Source: Edaphobacter lichenicola | Lineage (GTDB): Bacteria; Acidobacteriota; Terriglobia; Terriglobales; Acidobacteriaceae | Assembly: GCF_025264645.1 (NCBI RefSeq) | Contig: NZ_CP073696.1 | Coordinates: 4,216,001-4,280,000, forward strand | Length of the DNA: 64,000 nt | Direction of reading: 5' to 3' | In this document: in pieces, positions 51,688-59,079 of the stretch | Layout: each line of letters begins with the position of its first letter | Numbering within the stretch: the first letter of the stretch is position 1 | Notes under the pieces: generated by a model | What the model was told of the DNA's origin: nothing | Databases searched by the model: none | What the model saw: only the letters and a program-made list of their open reading frames with translations | Translations under genes and position numbers: made by a program

Positions 51688-54345
51688 TTACGCCTTCACG
51701 GCCTCCCGATCCTTCACGACAAACTCCAGCCCGTTCTTGCCCGCTGTCACCACGACATGATCGCCATGCAATACGCTGCCGTCGAGGATCTTCACTGCCA
51801 GCTTGTCCTGCACCAGCCGCTGGATCGCTCTCTTCAGAGGTCGCGCTCCATAAGCCCGGTCGTACCCAGCCTTGAAGATCGCCTTCCGCGCTTCATCGGT
51901 CAGCTCCAGGGTAATCTTGCGATCCGCCAGCAGCTTCTGCAGATCCTTCAACCGCAGATCGACAATATGCGTCAGTTGCTCATCGGCCAGGGGATGGAAG
52001 ATCACGATATCGTCCACGCGATTCAGGAACTCCGGCTTGAAGTGCTTGCGCAACTCATCCATGACGCGACCCTTCGCCTCTTCGAAGCCATCTTCTCCCT
52101 GCGCCCAAGCCGTAGATAACTGCCCCGCGCCGACATTCGACGTCATGATCAGCACCGTGTTCTTGAAGTCCACGGTCCTGCCCTTCGAATCCGTCAGCCG
52201 GCCATCGTCGAGCACCTGCAGCAGCACATTGAACACATCCGGATGCGCCTTCTCGATCTCATCGAACAGCACCACCGCATAGGGCCGCCTGCGCACCGCC
52301 TCAGTCAACTGCCCGCCTTCGTCGTACCCAACGTATCCTGGAGGCGCCCCAATCAGCCGCGCCACGGCATGTTTCTCCATATACTCACTCATGTCGATCC
52401 GCACCATCGCGGCCTCGTCATCAAAGAGAAACTCCGCCAGCGCCCTCGCCGTCTCGGTCTTTCCAACACCGGTCGGACCAAGAAAGATGAACGAACCAAT
52501 CGGCCGTTTCGGATCGGAGAGCCCCGCACGCGACCGGCGAATCGCATTCGCCACTACGTTGAGCCCTTCATCCTGGCCAACCACCCGCTCGCGCAAACGA
52601 TCCTCCATCTGCACCAGCTTCTGCATCTCGCCCTCAAGCATCTTCGCAACAGGAATCCCCGTCCACTTCGACACCACAGCAGCGATATCCTCTTCGTCGA
52701 CCTCTTCCTTCAACATCCGCGAGGGCCTCTTTGCAGCGCCCGACTTCGCCTCTGCCTCATCTTCACGAACGGCCGCATCCTGCTCGGCCGTCAACTCACG
52801 CAGCTCAGCCTCCAGCTTCGGAATCTCGCCGTACTGCAGCTCAGCCGCACGCTGCAGATTCCCCTTGCGAGTCTCCTCGCCCATCTGGAACCGCAGCGAC
52901 TCCAACTGCTCCTTCAACTCAGCCATCTTGCCAATCGCGCCGCGCTCCGTCTGCCATCTTGCACGCAGACCCGCAGCAGCTTCCTTCACCTCAGCCAGCT
53001 CACGCTCTACAATCTCCAACCGCTCCTGCGAGCCAGCATCCTTCTCTCGCTTCAACGCAGCGCGTTCAATCTCAAGCGAGGTCGCCCTCCGCTCGAGATC
53101 ATCAATCTCCACCGGCACAGACCCAATCTGAATCGCCAGCGCCGCTGCAGCTTCATCGACCAGGTCAATCGCCTTATCCGGCAGAAACCGGTCCGAGATG
53201 TACCGATGGCTCAACGTCGCCGCCGCCACAATCGCCGAATCCTTAATCCGTACCTTGTGGTGCGCCTCGTACTTCTCCTTCAACCCACGCAGAATCGCCA
53301 CCGTATCCTCGACGTTCGGTTCGCCGACGAACACAATCTGAAACCGCCTTTCCAGCGCCGCATCCTTCTCGATGTACTTCCGATACTCCGTCAGCGTGGT
53401 TGCGCCGATCGCCCGCAAACCGCCGCGAGCCAACGCAGGCTTCAGCATGTTGCTCGCATCGAGCGACCCTTCGCTCGCACCCGCGCCCACCAGAGTATGT
53501 AACTCGTCGATGAACAAAATCACTTCACCATTCGAGTCTTCAATCTCCTTAAGCACCGCCTTCAGCCGGTCCTCAAACTCCCCGCGGAACTTCGCTCCGG
53601 CGATCATCGCGCCCAGGTCCAGCGAACACACTCTCTTGTTACGCAGAATCTCCGGCACATCACCGAGAAAGATCCTTCGCGCCAACCCTTCGACGATCGC
53701 CGTCTTACCAACGCCCGGCTCGCCGATCAACACAGGATTGTTCTTCGTCCGGCGGCTCAGCACCTGCACCACACGCCGAATCTCTTCATCCCGCCCGATC
53801 ACCGGATCAAGCTTCCCCCTCCGCGCCAGATCCGTCAGATCCTTCGCGTACTTCTCCAGCGCCTGGAACTTGCCCTCAGGATTCTGGTCCGTCACTCTCT
53901 GTCCGCCGCGAACCGCACTCAGCGCCTTCAGAATCGCCTCATGCGTCCCACCCAGCGCCGCCAACGCCAGCTGCACCGGGTCGTTCTTCGTCTTCGACAA
54001 CGCCAGCAGCAGATGCTCCGTCGATACGTAGTCGTCCTTAAAGCTCTCCGCCTCTTTAAATCCCTGCTCCAACACCTTCTGTAACGCAGCCGACAGCCCC
54101 GGCTGCCCCCCACCCTGCACCTTCGGCAGCTTCTCAATCGCCGAGTTCACCCCCGAAAGCAGCTGCTCCACCGGCACCCCAACTTTCTCCAGCACCGGGA
54201 TCACCACTCCCTCGCGGTCCTCCAACAGCGCCGCCATCAAATGCAGCGGCTGCACCTCCGGATTGCCGTTCTCCGCCGCATGTCCGCTGGCAGCCTGCAC
54301 GGCCTCCTGAGACTTCACCGTCAAACGCTCCCACTTAATCGCCAT
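51688..54345 (-). CDS. clpB: Disaggregase ClpB
   Basis: 885 residues from ATG 54345 ([15 protein letters not shown], the family start); the in-frame upstream region is not conserved. Order: Clp N domain (1-145), AAA-1 with Walker A GEPGVGKT at 208-215 and [23 protein letters not shown], a coiled-coil middle domain (about 400-530), then AAA-2 with GPTGVGKTE near 610 and the conserved arginine-finger region, and a C-terminal small domain. ClpB dissolves protein aggregates with DnaK. An inverted repeat shared with hsp20 lies upstream at 54414-54442. Confidence 0.95.
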
Positions 54346-54413
54346 AAATCCTGTCCCTTCATCAATTTCAGTTTGCTTACAGATTAGACGCGCCAAGACT
54401 CAACAAGATGCGG

Positions 54414-54442
54414 GAAATATGACAATAACTCACTCATATTTC
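54414..54442 (-). promoter_or_regulatory. Candidate heat-shock operator upstream of clpB
   Basis: GAAATATGA (54414-54422) and TCATATTTC (54434-54442) form a perfect 9-bp inverted repeat with an 11-bp spacer (54423-54433), 68 bp upstream of the clpB start. The hsp20 upstream region has the same arms (8 bp) at the same spacing. The repeat is not CIRCE (TTAGCACTC-N9-GAGTGCTAA) or HAIR (CTTGAGT-N7-ACTCAAG). It could be a repressor operator overlapping the promoter, or the promoter of an alternative sigma factor. Confidence 0.6.
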
Positions 54443-54544
54443 ATAGCCCTCGTTCCCGGAACCCCGGAAACCATTACAAATAAAACACCTAAGCACTCCC
54501 ACCTGGGCATAGCATAGATTGATGGACCAATCTCCAGCCTCGGA

Positions 54545-55339
54545 GTGACCTTCTCCACCATTAAGCTCGCCATCGTCTATCTGACTCTCGGCCCTCCCGC
54601 CGGAATCCTTGGCATCCTCTACTCCCTTATTACCGGCAAAACCGACATCCTCTACAAGTCCGGACTCATGCGCATCGCCCGCTTCGGCACACAAGCGGCC
54701 GGCGTCCGCGTCACACTCCGCGGCCTCGAAAACGTCCCAGCCGATCGTCCCTGCGTCTTCATGGCGAACCACGCCTCCAATCTCGATCCGCCGATCATCC
54801 TTCCGCTCATCCCTGGCCGCACTTCGATCCTGATGAAAAGTTCGCTCATGCGAATTCCCATCCTGGGCACGGCAATGCGCATGGGCAAGTTCGTTCCCAT
54901 TGAACGCGGCGGCTCATTAGAAGGAAGTCGTCGCAGCGTTCAAGCTGCCTCCGACGCCATCCGCTCCGGCCTTCATCTCCTGGTCTTTCCGGAGGGCACC
55001 CGCTCACCCGATGGCCGTCTCACCAGCTTCAAAAAAGGTCCGTTCTTCCTGGCAGAGCGGTCAGGAGCGCCGATCATTCCTGTCGCTATCGCCGGAACAG
55101 AACGCCTCATGCCCAAAAACAGCGCCGGTATCCATCCCGGTGATGTTCAGGTCACCTATCTCCCGTTGATCGAACCGCGTGACTATCCTACTCGCAACGC
55201 ATTGATGGAGGCTGTGCACTCAGCGATATCCGCCGCGCTGCCAACAGATCTCAGGCCCGTCGATCTTCCGAAAAAGCTCACACCAATCGCGCTGCCCTTC
55301 GTCAGCCATGACGTGTTGAGCGATGCCATCATGCCGTAA
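54545..55339 (+). CDS. plsC: 1-acyl-sn-glycerol-3-phosphate acyltransferase
   Basis: 264 residues, GTG start (the first possible in-frame start after a stop; the ribosome binding site is weak). PlsC motifs are clear: NHASNLD (H76xxxxD81), VPIERGG near 118, FPEGTR at 148-153, and a late VPVAI-like PVAIAGTE. It acylates lysophosphatidate at the sn-2 position on the inner membrane during phospholipid synthesis. An N-terminal helix anchors it. It is divergent from clpB across an intergenic region that holds the putative clpB operator. Confidence 0.87.
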   Translation: MTFSTIKLAIVYLTLGPPAGILGILYSLITGKTDILYKSGLMRIARFGTQAAGVRVTLRGLENVPADRPCVFMANHASNLDPPIILPLIPGRTSILMKSSLMRIPILGTAMRMGKFVPIERGGSLEGSRRSVQAASDAIRSGLHLLVFPEGTRSPDGRLTSFKKGPFFLAERSGAPIIPVAIAGTERLMPKNSAGIHPGDVQVTYLPLIEPRDYPTRNALMEAVHSAISAALPTDLRPVDLPKKLTPIALPFVSHDVLSDAIMP

Positions 55340-55357
55340 AAACGAGACACCGTCGTC

Positions 55358-56119
55358 CTAACGAATCCTTGCCAGCTGGTCCATCGCATCCCGAACCGCG
55401 GTAGAAGAGATTCTCAGAACGCCACTGAACGGCGAATACATCTCCAAAATGACGAAGATGGCTCCTGAGACCGACAGCGCGCAGATGACCAGCGTCGCCA
55501 TCACCGTCGCGTTCTTCGGAGCGAAGATCCCAAAACTGATGAAGATCGTCACCAGCCACAGTGTAACGACAGCCAGCAGCGGAATGGGAATCGTAGCCTG
55601 CTCCGACTCAAGGAACATCAGCCAGTAAGACTTTCGCAGGCTTTGCATCAGCAAGGCTACTTGTGTCTTGGCGTAAACCTGCTCGTCATTCTTTGGTATA
55701 AGCAGTTGCATCTGCGCGTTAAGGACATCGTCATTGCTCTTCGGTCGAAGCTCAGATAGACGTGACTTCTCTTTAGGCCAGATCCGATCGACCGCATCTC
55801 CTACAGATTGGCGGATCTCAACACGAAGTGGTTCGCTATCATGTCCGAAGATGGCAAGCGCGTTATCGAGGAGAATCACCTCGGTCGACATCTCCGCGAC
55901 CTTGCTCCTTTGACCGTCGTAGTAAGTCTTCGCCGACGAAACAAGCATCCCAAGCACCAGGCCGGTCATCGCTGCGACAAGCCCAATCGCGAGCCTCATC
56001 GTATCTTTCGCGTCCTCCCCCAAATGCTCCTGCGGCAAAGCCCGGCGCAGAACGATTCCAACAAGCGCCCCCGAGAAGACCAGTGAAAAGACGACAAAGC
56101 TTACCGCCAGTGAGTTCAT
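55358..56119 (-). CDS. DUF4239 membrane protein
   Basis: 253 residues with an N-terminal helix, a second at about 45-65, a cytoplasmic helical stretch (70-170) and two C-terminal helices (about 177-235). The RLAIGLVAAMTGLVLGMLVSSAKTYYDGQR segment is characteristic of DUF4239, a bestrophin-like integral membrane family of unknown function found mainly in Proteobacteria and Acidobacteria. It lies convergent with plsC. Confidence 0.8.
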   Translation of the reverse strand: MNSLAVSFVVFSLVFSGALVGIVLRRALPQEHLGEDAKDTMRLAIGLVAAMTGLVLGMLVSSAKTYYDGQRSKVAEMSTEVILLDNALAIFGHDSEPLRVEIRQSVGDAVDRIWPKEKSRLSELRPKSNDDVLNAQMQLLIPKNDEQVYAKTQVALLMQSLRKSYWLMFLESEQATIPIPLLAVVTLWLVTIFISFGIFAPKNATVMATLVICALSVSGAIFVILEMYSPFSGVLRISSTAVRDAMDQLARIR

Positions 56120-56347
56120 AGACCTTCGACTCTTTCTCCCTCTGACCGAATGGCACTACGTCATGCGACCTTGCATCCGTAAACCTAAGTGGAAAGAGAA
56201 TATCGCCCAAACTCGGAATGTGCCTGGAACCAACTCACACAGTGTGGACTGCAGAAACGAGCGCTGCAACTGGCAAAAGTAATAACCAGCTGAAGATCGC
56301 TCGAAACTGTCCGGCAAAACGGTCACACGGATTGAAGACGCCCCGGT

Positions 56348-57532
56348 TTAAAAATCCACCACCGTCAGGTCGACTGGAAACTCCAGTTTCCTGCTCGACG
56401 GGCTGGCGAAAAGGCCCTTGCTCCACTCTCCGTTCAGCCCGTCCTTATCGAACTGCGCAGCCGGCAGCTGACCCGCTACCTCGAAGTGGTCGATGACATA
56501 AGGCAGCCCCGACGACCCCAGCACCGAAGTGCCATCCATCAGGTGAAAGTGCAGGTGAGGAGCCGACGTGTTGCCCGTATTACCAAGCAGCGCAAGCGCC
56601 TGACCACGCTTCACATGATCCCCCGTGTGAACCAGCAGCGAGTTTTTCTGCAGGTGAGCATAGAACCCATATCTGCCCCCACCAAGGTCGAGCACGATAT
56701 GATTGCCGTCCACGTTTTCGATCGTAATCGTCTTGGGATCGGGCAGATCTCCCGGCACTTGATCGTCAAGCGTCGAAAGCGCATCGATCACGGTGCCATC
56801 GGCCACGGCAATCACCGTTGCGCCATAATCGAAGTAGTCCTTCACACCCTTTCCATTCCCGCGAAAGAACTTTGCATCCGCTCCCAACAGCATCCAGTCA
56901 ATCGCGAACCGCTGTGCATACTGCATGACCCCATTCACAGGCTGCCCACTGCCGCGATGCACACCTCCTGCCTCGCAACATCCATTGAGAGCAACCCATC
57001 CCTTACCCGAAAGCGGTGGCCCAAGCACCATCACATCCGTGCTCACTGCAATCGGCGCAATCGTATAGGTCTGCTCCACCGCCAGATCCTTCGGCGACCC
57101 CGGAGGCCCACCTGCCAGCAGATGAAACCGATGCATCAATCTCGCTGGCGGCTGAGCATCCCCATCAAGCGCGATGTCAATCAACAGTAGCCGAGTCTCA
57201 CTGAACCCAATCGTCGCTGCAGTCATCGCGTCGCCACGCCCGGCATAACGCAGACGAGACAACAAGGCGGCGCCTTCGAAGCTGGCAAGCACCTGCTTCG
57301 AATCAGCAGCACTCACAACGTCAACTCCCTGCAACGTCGCCATCGCGCTTCCCGTATTTGTAATCTCAAGTTCGTAGACAAGGTGCAGTTTGTTGTCCGT
57401 CCCCCGAAAGGCAATCGTCGAAGGCTTCATCGCCGACGCCACCACCGGGGTCAGCACATCTCCCGCTCGAGCCTGAAGATTCGCAGACAAACAGACAGCC
57501 GCAACCAACAGGAAGAGACGAATCACACGCAT
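56348..57532 (-). CDS. Secreted M23-family peptidase
   Basis: 394 residues from ATG 57532 (MRVIRLFLLVAAVC, a signal peptide ending near ARAG); an in-frame upstream ATG adds 21. Residues 20-200 are a beta-rich region, followed by the M23/LytM domain with the zinc motif TSAPHLHFHL (HxH), HTGDHVKRGQALALLGNTG, and an HxxxD-type first ligand in DWMLLGADAKF or GVMQYAQRFAID. M23 enzymes cut peptidoglycan cross-links. Whether all zinc ligands are present is hard to see, so it could be an inactive regulator. Confidence 0.83.
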   Translation of the reverse strand: MRVIRLFLLVAAVCLSANLQARAGDVLTPVVASAMKPSTIAFRGTDNKLHLVYELEITNTGSAMATLQGVDVVSAADSKQVLASFEGAALLSRLRYAGRGDAMTAATIGFSETRLLLIDIALDGDAQPPARLMHRFHLLAGGPPGSPKDLAVEQTYTIAPIAVSTDVMVLGPPLSGKGWVALNGCCEAGGVHRGSGQPVNGVMQYAQRFAIDWMLLGADAKFFRGNGKGVKDYFDYGATVIAVADGTVIDALSTLDDQVPGDLPDPKTITIENVDGNHIVLDLGGGRYGFYAHLQKNSLLVHTGDHVKRGQALALLGNTGNTSAPHLHFHLMDGTSVLGSSGLPYVIDHFEVAGQLPAAQFDKDGLNGEWSKGLFASPSSRKLEFPVDLTVVDF

Positions 57533-57712
57533 AAGCAAGCCTCTAGAACGTAGATTTTTCAGTGACTGGCCCGGAGGGAGGGAGAGAGCAATCACATTAG
57601 AGCAGAGTCTTCAGCGTATTGCCATCTGCAACACCCTATTCGTGCAGCTCACAAAACCACGCCCAACAAAGCCCTTCGCCCTTTACCATCAGCTCTGAGC
57701 ACAACTCAATCT

Positions 57713-58390
57713 ATGAGTACCACCACCGGCATCACCGTCAAACCCAACGCGCTCCCCGACGCCATGCTCCTCGCAACCACCGGAGGCCTGCTCGACGCCT
57801 TCATCTTCCTCAACCACGGCCATGTCTTCGCCAACGCCATGACCGGCAACGTCGTCTTCCTCGGAATCGCCCTGATCGGTCGCGACTGGAAAGAGATCGT
57901 TCCCCATCTCGTCCCCATCTGCGGCTTTATCGTTGGCGTTGCCGCCTCAAAACGTGCCCGCTCTCACCTTCAGGAGCGCCCCCTCCTCCTGCTCGGCCTC
58001 TCGTTTGAGATCGTGGTGCTCTTTGCGCTTGGCTGGCTCCCCATCGATGCCCCGCACATGGTCTTCGCCGCAACCACCGCGATCGTCGGCGCCTTTCAAG
58101 TCGCCAGCTATCGCCACGTCGAAGGCTTCGGGTACAACTCCACCTTCATCACCGGCAACCTGCGCGACACAGTGGAAGGCTTCTACGACGCCATCACACC
58201 AGGCGTTACCCCGGAGGTGCGCGACAAAGGCCGCGCCAAGGCACTCGACCTCGGCCTCATCTGCCTCTGCTTTCTCGCCGGAGCCGTCATCGGAGCGTGG
58301 GCCGCACCTCGCTTCGCCAACCACACCCTTTGGTTCGCCGAGCCGTTCCTCTTCGTCGTCGCCCTTCGCGCTCTAAGCCTGCGCGCCTGA
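57713..58390 (+). CDS. YoaK-like DUF1275 membrane protein
   Basis: 225 residues with about six helices. The DUF1275 pattern is clear: LLATTGGLLDAFIFLNHGHVFANAMTGNVVFLGIAL at the N-terminus (GGxxDAxxF, ANAMTGN) and VASYRHVEGFGYNSTFITGNLRDTVE in the second half, an internal repeat. The role of DUF1275/YoaK transporters is unknown. It has no clear Shine-Dalgarno sequence. It is followed by a shared terminator region with hsp20. Confidence 0.87.
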   Translation: MSTTTGITVKPNALPDAMLLATTGGLLDAFIFLNHGHVFANAMTGNVVFLGIALIGRDWKEIVPHLVPICGFIVGVAASKRARSHLQERPLLLLGLSFEIVVLFALGWLPIDAPHMVFAATTAIVGAFQVASYRHVEGFGYNSTFITGNLRDTVEGFYDAITPGVTPEVRDKGRAKALDLGLICLCFLAGAVIGAWAAPRFANHTLWFAEPFLFVVALRALSLRA

Positions 58391-58410
58391 CCCCATCACC
58401 AAAACAGAAA

Positions 58411-58431
58411 GGGGAGGCGTCAAGCCTCCCC
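58411..58431. terminator. Terminator between DUF1275 gene and hsp20
   Basis: GGGGAGGC (58411-58418) pairs with GCCTCCCC (58424-58431) around a 5-nt loop. On the minus strand the stem is followed by a T-rich run (TTTCTGTTTT), so it best fits the hsp20 transcript, which ends at 58453; it can act in the other direction too. Confidence 0.7.
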
Positions 58432-58452
58432 ACAAACAATCATTCGTCACTC

Positions 58453-58932
58453 TTACTGAGCAGCCTGCGCCTCAACCTGCTTCGAAGCACCAACCTGCAC
58501 CTTGATCTGCTTCGGCTGAGCCTCTGCCTTCTTCGACAGAGAGATCGTCAAGACTCCAGCGTCAGAACTAGCAGTCACGCCCTCGGTATCGACGGTCTGC
58601 GGCAGCGTAAAGCTCCGGACGAAGCTCCCAAACCGGCGTTCAATCCGGTGGAAGTTCTCCGCCTTCTCGGTCTGCTCGAACTTCCGCTCGCCTTTGACGA
58701 CCAGCGTATTGTTCTCCAGCCGAATATCCAGATCCTCCTGCTTCACCCCAGGAATCTCCAGCTTCAAAACCAGCTTCTCTGCATCCTCGTAGACATCGAC
58801 GGCAGGAGTAAATCCTGCGTTCGAGCCCTCCGATCCGGCAAAGTCATTGAAGATCGAGTTCAAACGCTTCTGCAACCCGGCAACATCCTCAAACGGCGTA
58901 CGCAACGGCACAAATCGAGTCATCGTCGTCAT
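58453..58932 (-). CDS. Hsp20 / alpha-crystallin small heat-shock protein
   Basis: 159 residues. The alpha-crystallin domain is at about 40-145 (FTPAVDVYEDAEKLVLKLEIPGVKQEDLDIRLENNTLVVKGERKFEQTEKAENFHRIERRFGSFVRSFTLP). The C-terminal extension is Ala/Gln/Lys-rich, without a clean IxI motif. It binds unfolding proteins and hands them to DnaK/ClpB. A strong GGAGG precedes the ATG by 6 nt. The 217-bp upstream region has the palindromic motif at 59029-59055, also seen at clpB. Confidence 0.93.
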   Translation of the reverse strand: MTTMTRFVPLRTPFEDVAGLQKRLNSIFNDFAGSEGSNAGFTPAVDVYEDAEKLVLKLEIPGVKQEDLDIRLENNTLVVKGERKFEQTEKAENFHRIERRFGSFVRSFTLPQTVDTEGVTASSDAGVLTISLSKKAEAQPKQIKVQVGASKQVEAQAAQ

Positions 58933-58992
58933 AAAATCCTCCTGAATCAGTTACTTGAGATGTCCAGAACGACTTCGCTTCATCGTCCTGCG

Positions 58993-59079
58993 CTTAGTTA
59001 GACGTAGTATAGCTCCAATGGTTGCATAAAATATGATGTAAATACACTCATATTTGCAATTAAAACTTTCCTAACTAAG
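58993..59079. repeat. Outer 9-bp inverted repeat flanking the hsp20 operator
   Basis: CTTAGTTAG (58993-59001) and CTAACTAAG (59071-59079) are perfectly complementary, 69 bp apart, and enclose the 59029-59055 palindrome. The two centres lie about 6 bp apart. No comparable outer repeat is present at clpB. Confidence 0.5.
59029..59055 (-). promoter_or_regulatory. Candidate heat-shock operator upstream of hsp20
   Basis: AAATATGA (59029-59036) and TCATATTT (59048-59055) with an 11-bp spacer, 96 bp upstream of the hsp20 start. On the minus strand it overlaps possible promoter elements (TTGCAA and CATATT 18 bp apart). The same arms and spacing occur upstream of clpB, and both share AAATATGAGTG on the minus strand. 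Confidence 0.6.

Follow-up and report, generated by a model that had tools for sequence, protein, structure and literature searches.

Two chaperone genes, clpB and hsp20, are each preceded by the same palindrome in the stretch of Edaphobacter lichenicola DNA analysed here (the window: 64,000 nucleotides, positions 4216001-4280000 of a genome consisting of a single contig of 5.66 Mb), and the question is which regulator, if any, this palindrome serves. We consider it probable, at roughly 0.87 and judging from sequence comparison, that both palindromes are operators of the repressor HspR, in a local spelling of the HspR-associated inverted repeat (HAIR), TGAGY-N7-RCTCA, with AT-rich outer arms replacing those of CTTGAGT-N7-ACTCAAG. 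The identification is drawn from the HAIR spacing of both sites, from dnaK arms that alternate between the canonical and the window type, and from an HspR-like protein encoded in the same genome. The original prediction had proposed an undescribed operator, noting that HspR/HAIR sites look different. This was understandable but, in the light of the same three observations, is probably wrong, HAIR with altered outer arms being the more probable description.

Palindromes upstream of clpB and hsp20

54415..54441, no strand assigned: predicted HAIR-like operator of clpB, AAATATGA-N11-TCATATTT, exact; HAIR core 54418-54438
59029..59055, no strand assigned: predicted HAIR-like operator of hsp20, AAATATGA-N11-TCATATTT, exact; HAIR core 59032-59052
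51688..54345, minus strand: clpB, likely ATG at 54345, giving 885 aa; Pfam Clp_N, AAA, AAA_2, ClpB_D2-small
58453..58932, minus strand: hsp20, 159 aa, ATG at 58932; Pfam HSP20, E=6e-25

The palindrome is indeed present at both places where it had been described; its distance to the start codon is 68-69 bp at clpB (likely ATG) and 96 bp at hsp20. At clpB, 9-bp arms widen its span to 54414-54442. On the minus strand both copies read AAATATGAGTG. With dinucleotide shuffling of the window, two matches at up to three mismatches were obtained in none of 100 cases (mean 0.04). In the whole genome, three sites were found at this tolerance: the copies at clpB and hsp20, which are the only exact ones, and one with 3 mismatches. 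The reversed pattern, used as a control, also gave three, so that loose matches represent background and the two exact copies alone stand out. A looser scan (TATGAGYG-N5-CRCTCATA, up to 3 mismatches) returned 30 sites versus 23 for its reversed control, which is weak by itself; one of the 30 is the groES site. Scanning the genome, as the original prediction had envisaged, thus brought no further exact copy, while related sites were found at dnaK and groES (see below). Rfam models, applied to the window with their gathering thresholds, gave no match. Among 300 genomes of the family, the window's own included, a match with up to two mismatches was present in 148, versus 29 of 300 for the reversed control (counts of rows).

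Conservation was assessed at hsp20/clpB loci collected by two routes and scored with a 22-position consensus. A ClpB search gave a match in 281 of the 300 family genomes, and the upstream regions comprised 30 loci and 40 further regions; 62 of these 70 were kept, L123, L124, L130, L131 and L136 (no anchor gene), L082 (the window's own), L085 (identical to L086) and L132 (too short) being left out. The motif search contributed 30 loci, 13 of them with an anchor gene, of which 12 were kept (the near copy L012 was omitted); in 13 of the 30 the site stands ahead of an hsp20-clpB pair. This made a total of 74 loci, with L374-L381 outside the count. The orthologous promoters keep the site, at a score of at least 15 of 22, in 53 of the 74 loci, against 1.3 expected from shuffles of all 74, and 41 of the 62 loci picked through ClpB, and hence independently of the motif, reach the same score. 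Examination of 77 hsp20/clpB promoters left 7 without any score of at least 13, a circular count since the window's own consensus had served to locate the sites. The hsp20-clpB site of several distant genera is TTGACAATAATACACTCATATTT or near to it and comes closer to the canonical HAIR.

The 13 relatives with hsp20 and clpB together behind one site would allow the two window sites to be copies, that is, the functionless shared descent of one duplicated promoter, and chance might be invoked as well. Both are extremely unlikely explanations, given how far the number of conserved loci exceeds that from shuffling. In many relatives, clpB and hsp20 are neighbours; they are apart in the window genome, each with its own site, and the gap between them (window 54545-58390) holds four likely genes, named by eye as acyltransferase-like, membrane protein, M23-peptidase-like and DUF1275-like.

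An HspR-like protein and related sites at dnaK and groES

The original prediction had assumed one heat-shock regulator site common to clpB and hsp20, whose regulator is not encoded in the window. This is supported by an HspR-like MerR protein encoded elsewhere in the genome (G000:C1:166493-166909), one of three MerR_1 matches there. Its best family is NCBIfam HspR NF047375 (E=3e-29, 100.8 bits), the best non-HspR family reaching 53.7 bits. HspR-like relatives are present in 287 of the 300 family genomes, and the closest named ones, among the best 80 of 392, come from Edaphobacter, Granulicella and unclassified Acidobacteriaceae. The 27 PDB matches of the protein include no solved HspR, the best being CadR and other MerR proteins. 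Usually, though not universally, hspR sits with dnaK and dnaJ. The order here is dnaK, nei, dnaJ, hspR, with an opposite-strand open reading frame (ORF) separating dnaK from nei; inspection by eye of the stretch from dnaK to hspR revealed no grpE-like ORF. A dnaJ match accompanies hspR at 71 of the 86 fetched loci and 21 of the 30 short loci. In the dnaK-hspR cluster of L288, a Fpg/Nei-type DNA glycosylase (Pfam) is located between dnaK and dnaJ, and a similar ORF was seen by eye in G098 (L289).

Upstream of dnaK in the window's own genome, GTTGACAATAAGTGACTCAAG at 159324-159344 agrees with HAIR at 11 of 14 positions, a value reached by none of 200 shuffles; in the alignment, 62 bp separate it from the start. 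By a strict recount, 51 dnaK loci have a usable start (50 distinct ones, L293 and L311 being one contig), and 49 of the 51 carry TTGACA-N7-ACTCA within 250 bp of it, a pattern that was written after the first dnaK sites had been seen and is to that extent circular. The two bases that follow are AG in 27 loci, CA in 7, AT in 7, TA in 5, AC in 2 and GA in 1. The canonical arm ACTCAAG is therefore present in 27 loci, and window-type ACTCATA or ACTCACA stands at the same place in others. The TTGACA box of the dnaK promoters lies within the left arm of the site, which makes occlusion plausible. No convincing site was detected at a second dnaK paralog in the five loci scanned.

At groES, a site scoring 15-21 of 22 was found in all 29 anchored loci (30 were fetched, one unanchored) with shuffle fractions of at most 0.01, having been located with the window's own consensus and thus circularly; the copy in the window's own genome is CTTGCGTGACTTTCACTCATATTT. 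It stands upstream of a TTGAC box in 29 of 29 loci (TTGACA in 26, by reading) and is followed downstream by a repeat resembling CIRCE (controlling inverted repeat of chaperone expression) at 14-18 of 18 positions. Among the groES loci (L182 with G000:C1:1489060-1489086, and L184-L213), the left arm of this repeat is TTAGCAATC instead of TTAGCACTC in 14 of 29 (count of rows). A genome search for TTAGCACTC-N9-GAGTGCTAA with up to 3 mismatches gave two matches, one at groES (1 mismatch) and a poor one at 4519379. HrcA/CIRCE was rejected as the operator of clpB and hsp20, as neither match lies there.

Weight matrices built from such sites were then applied to the approximately 64,000 positions of the window. 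With the dnaK matrix (37 distinct sites, own genome left out), the clpB site ranks first with a score of 21.3, the next best position scoring 1.5. The groES matrix was built from 28 sites picked solely by best fit to the published Streptomyces HAIR consensus, several of which are not HAIR sites by reading; it places clpB first and hsp20 second, whereas none of 200 controls from coding sequence gave the two sites the top two places. The window sites likewise come first and second with a matrix derived from 29 distant hsp20-clpB rows, but these rows had been chosen with the window's consensus. The link of the window sites to HAIR rests on the intermediate forms.

Several observations weigh against the assignment to HspR. 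As for the sites, each of the two in the window agrees with HAIR at only 8 of 14 positions, the usual level of shuffled 250-bp stretches, and with TTGAGY-N7-ACTCAA at 8 of 12, again background. The dnaK matrix ranks the hsp20 site 18th, or 36th with other pseudocounts, and the third position of the groES matrix follows close behind (13.3 versus 13.0). Eleven of the 74 hsp20/clpB loci score below 14 (in L092, L100 and L102 of these, the site is further upstream), the other 17 of the 30 motif-search loci are not at hsp20-clpB, and, because the genomes compared are related, the counts are not independent. As for the regulator, its 100.8 bits fall under the NCBIfam HspR cut-off of 105 (8 relatives have 99.8-104.7), and no clear site was seen by eye before hspR itself. 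G008, a genome rated 100% complete and with no HspR match, has no hsp20 site, yet it scores 16 of 22 at groES and has one motif match elsewhere in its genome. Sites at hsp20 with 14-18 of 22 persist in five more genomes that have no HspR match and are 68-93% complete. Gaps in these five incomplete assemblies likely explain the missing matches; still, HspR presence and site presence are not strictly coupled.

Some of these points would be expected if a different, undescribed regulator bound AAATATGA-N11-TCATATTT and the likeness to HAIR were a coincidence, namely the background-level match to HAIR and the retention of sites in the five incomplete genomes. The existence of just two exact copies in the genome and the outer arms, AT-rich and more symmetrical than in HAIR, point the same way. 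We nevertheless hold such a regulator to be quite improbable: at dnaK and groES, the orthologous sites show a gradation between canonical HAIR arms and the window form, and an HspR-like protein is found in nearly the whole family.

A candidate stress-sigma promoter beside the palindrome

If the palindromes are HspR operators, the mechanism that we infer would run as follows. In unstressed cells, an HspR dimer on the palindrome, which adjoins the core promoter, would keep clpB and hsp20 down, most likely by binding beside or over the promoter and repressing as it does elsewhere. Upon heat or protein misfolding, HspR would leave the palindrome, as is to be expected from HspR biology, and both genes would be transcribed from a promoter just downstream that has the look of one used by a stress sigma factor of the extracytoplasmic function (ECF) type. 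The candidate elements are:

54384..54412, minus strand: CGCATC-N16-CGTCTAA, a candidate ECF-type promoter for clpB; operator 2 bp upstream, ATG 38 bp downstream
58998..59026, minus strand: TGCAAC-N16-CGTCTAA, a candidate ECF-type promoter for hsp20; operator 2 bp upstream, ATG 65 bp downstream

The hsp20 element fits TGCAWC-N16-CGTCTAA exactly, and this consensus looks like the promoter of a candidate ECF-type stress sigma. Three exact copies occur in the genome, at hsp20, lon and a tlpA-dsbD pair. The clpB element has one mismatch and is one of 13 such genome sites, of which two stand before stress genes (clpB and trxC) and several others within long ORFs; upstream of clpB, a similar element is conserved in L083, L084, L086, L087, L088 and L091. 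With up to two mismatches, 189 genome sites were found against 309 in the control, and for this reason only exact matches, and one-mismatch matches with a fitting gene, were used. Across 21 genomes of the genus (16 with a match), 30 exact copies were counted versus 12 for the reversed control (row sum); they belong to lon (11), hsp20 (5), clpB (1), tlpA-dsbD (2), nadA-like genes (3, one Pfam-confirmed) and others (8). A looser form of the element is present in 36 of 70 hsp20/clpB promoters, where shuffles gave a mean of 0.09 and a maximum of 3 (the rows are related). In 11 genus genomes, only 7-13 bp lie between the end of the lon element (in the window's own genome G000:C1:1441606-1441634) and the likely start codon, so that the lon mRNA would be nearly leaderless. 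An extended -10 resembling TGNTATANT lies between the two boxes in many relatives, and a sigma-70 promoter may occupy the same place as the element.

The proximity of the two elements could also mean that the palindrome is no operator at all, and is instead part of an alternative-sigma promoter, such as an UP element or a -35 region. In the window, precisely 2 bp separate the end of the palindrome from the element, and the same holds for the best palindrome match in all five exact-element hsp20/clpB loci tested in other genomes (it exceeds all shuffles in four of these; L224, at 13 of 22, does not), and distant genera have TTGACA in the left arm. The element, however, occurs with no convincing palindrome within 250 bp at 11 lon, 1 trxC and 2 tlpA loci (at most 14 of 22; fractions of shuffles 0.04 and 0.08, higher for the others), and dnaK and groES carry the palindrome with TTGACA boxes instead of the element, which makes a purely promoter role very improbable. 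The suggestion of an alternative-sigma promoter made in the original prediction suits the separate element just downstream rather than the palindrome.

Returning to HspR as the ligand of the palindrome, we tentatively propose, at somewhat less than even odds, a layered arrangement. An unrecognised ECF-type heat-shock sigma of Acidobacteriaceae would drive lon, hsp20, clpB, trxC and thiol-redox genes, with HspR superimposed at hsp20 and clpB only; HspR would thus be imposed on sigma-70 promoters in the case of dnaK and groESL, and on a stress-sigma promoter in that of hsp20 and clpB. As for the sigma factor, the genome has 29 Sigma70_r2 matches, presumably including the housekeeping one, and no convincing autoregulatory copy of the element was found before these 29 genes (the best, 11 of 13 positions at 2 of the 29, was judged to be chance); nor did the neighbour of L250 point clearly to a cognate sigma. 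A GAF-SpoIIE phosphatase gene lies behind an element with 2 mismatches in the window's own genome (L175), and a GAF protein behind an exact element in a relative (L222); each may have a link to sigma control.

Comparison with known systems

A literature search, which covered few subscription journals, found no paper on HspR control in Acidobacteria, and for HrcA and CIRCE nothing beyond a citation of such work. For this widespread soil phylum, the sites described above offer a testable heat-shock circuit and point to a stress-sigma regulon. One of the systems compared below involves Deinococcus radiodurans Sig1, a sigma factor of ECF type.

In Streptomyces coelicolor, HspR is a MerR-type repressor that acts at the inverted repeat TTGAGY-N7-ACTCAA and has dnaK, clpB and lon among its targets (PMC2687793). 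The targets dnaK and clpB are shared with the system proposed here, in which, by contrast, the outer arms are AT-rich, hsp20 and groES also have the site, and lon has no such site. HspR targets in D. radiodurans include hsp20 and clpB (PMC2687793), and mycobacteria have an operon of dnaK, dnaJ, grpE and hspR (PMC5515531). In Campylobacter jejuni and Helicobacter pylori, groES has HAIR upstream of its core promoter, and CIRCE lies at the groESL start region (PMC7464140, PMC6102357); the same order is observed here, where the single best site per promoter was scored.

As for the second element, the HspR site at Mycobacterium tuberculosis clpB overlaps a promoter of the ECF sigma factor SigH (PMC4803200), whereas the site here ends 2 bp upstream of the candidate promoter. 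The SigH consensus, GGAAYR-N17-GTT (PMC4803200), and TGCAWC-N17-GTC have equal spacing and differ in their -35 and -10 letters. In D. radiodurans, Sig1 is needed for chaperone induction while HspR represses, so that both kinds of control are combined in one organism (PMC6888292).

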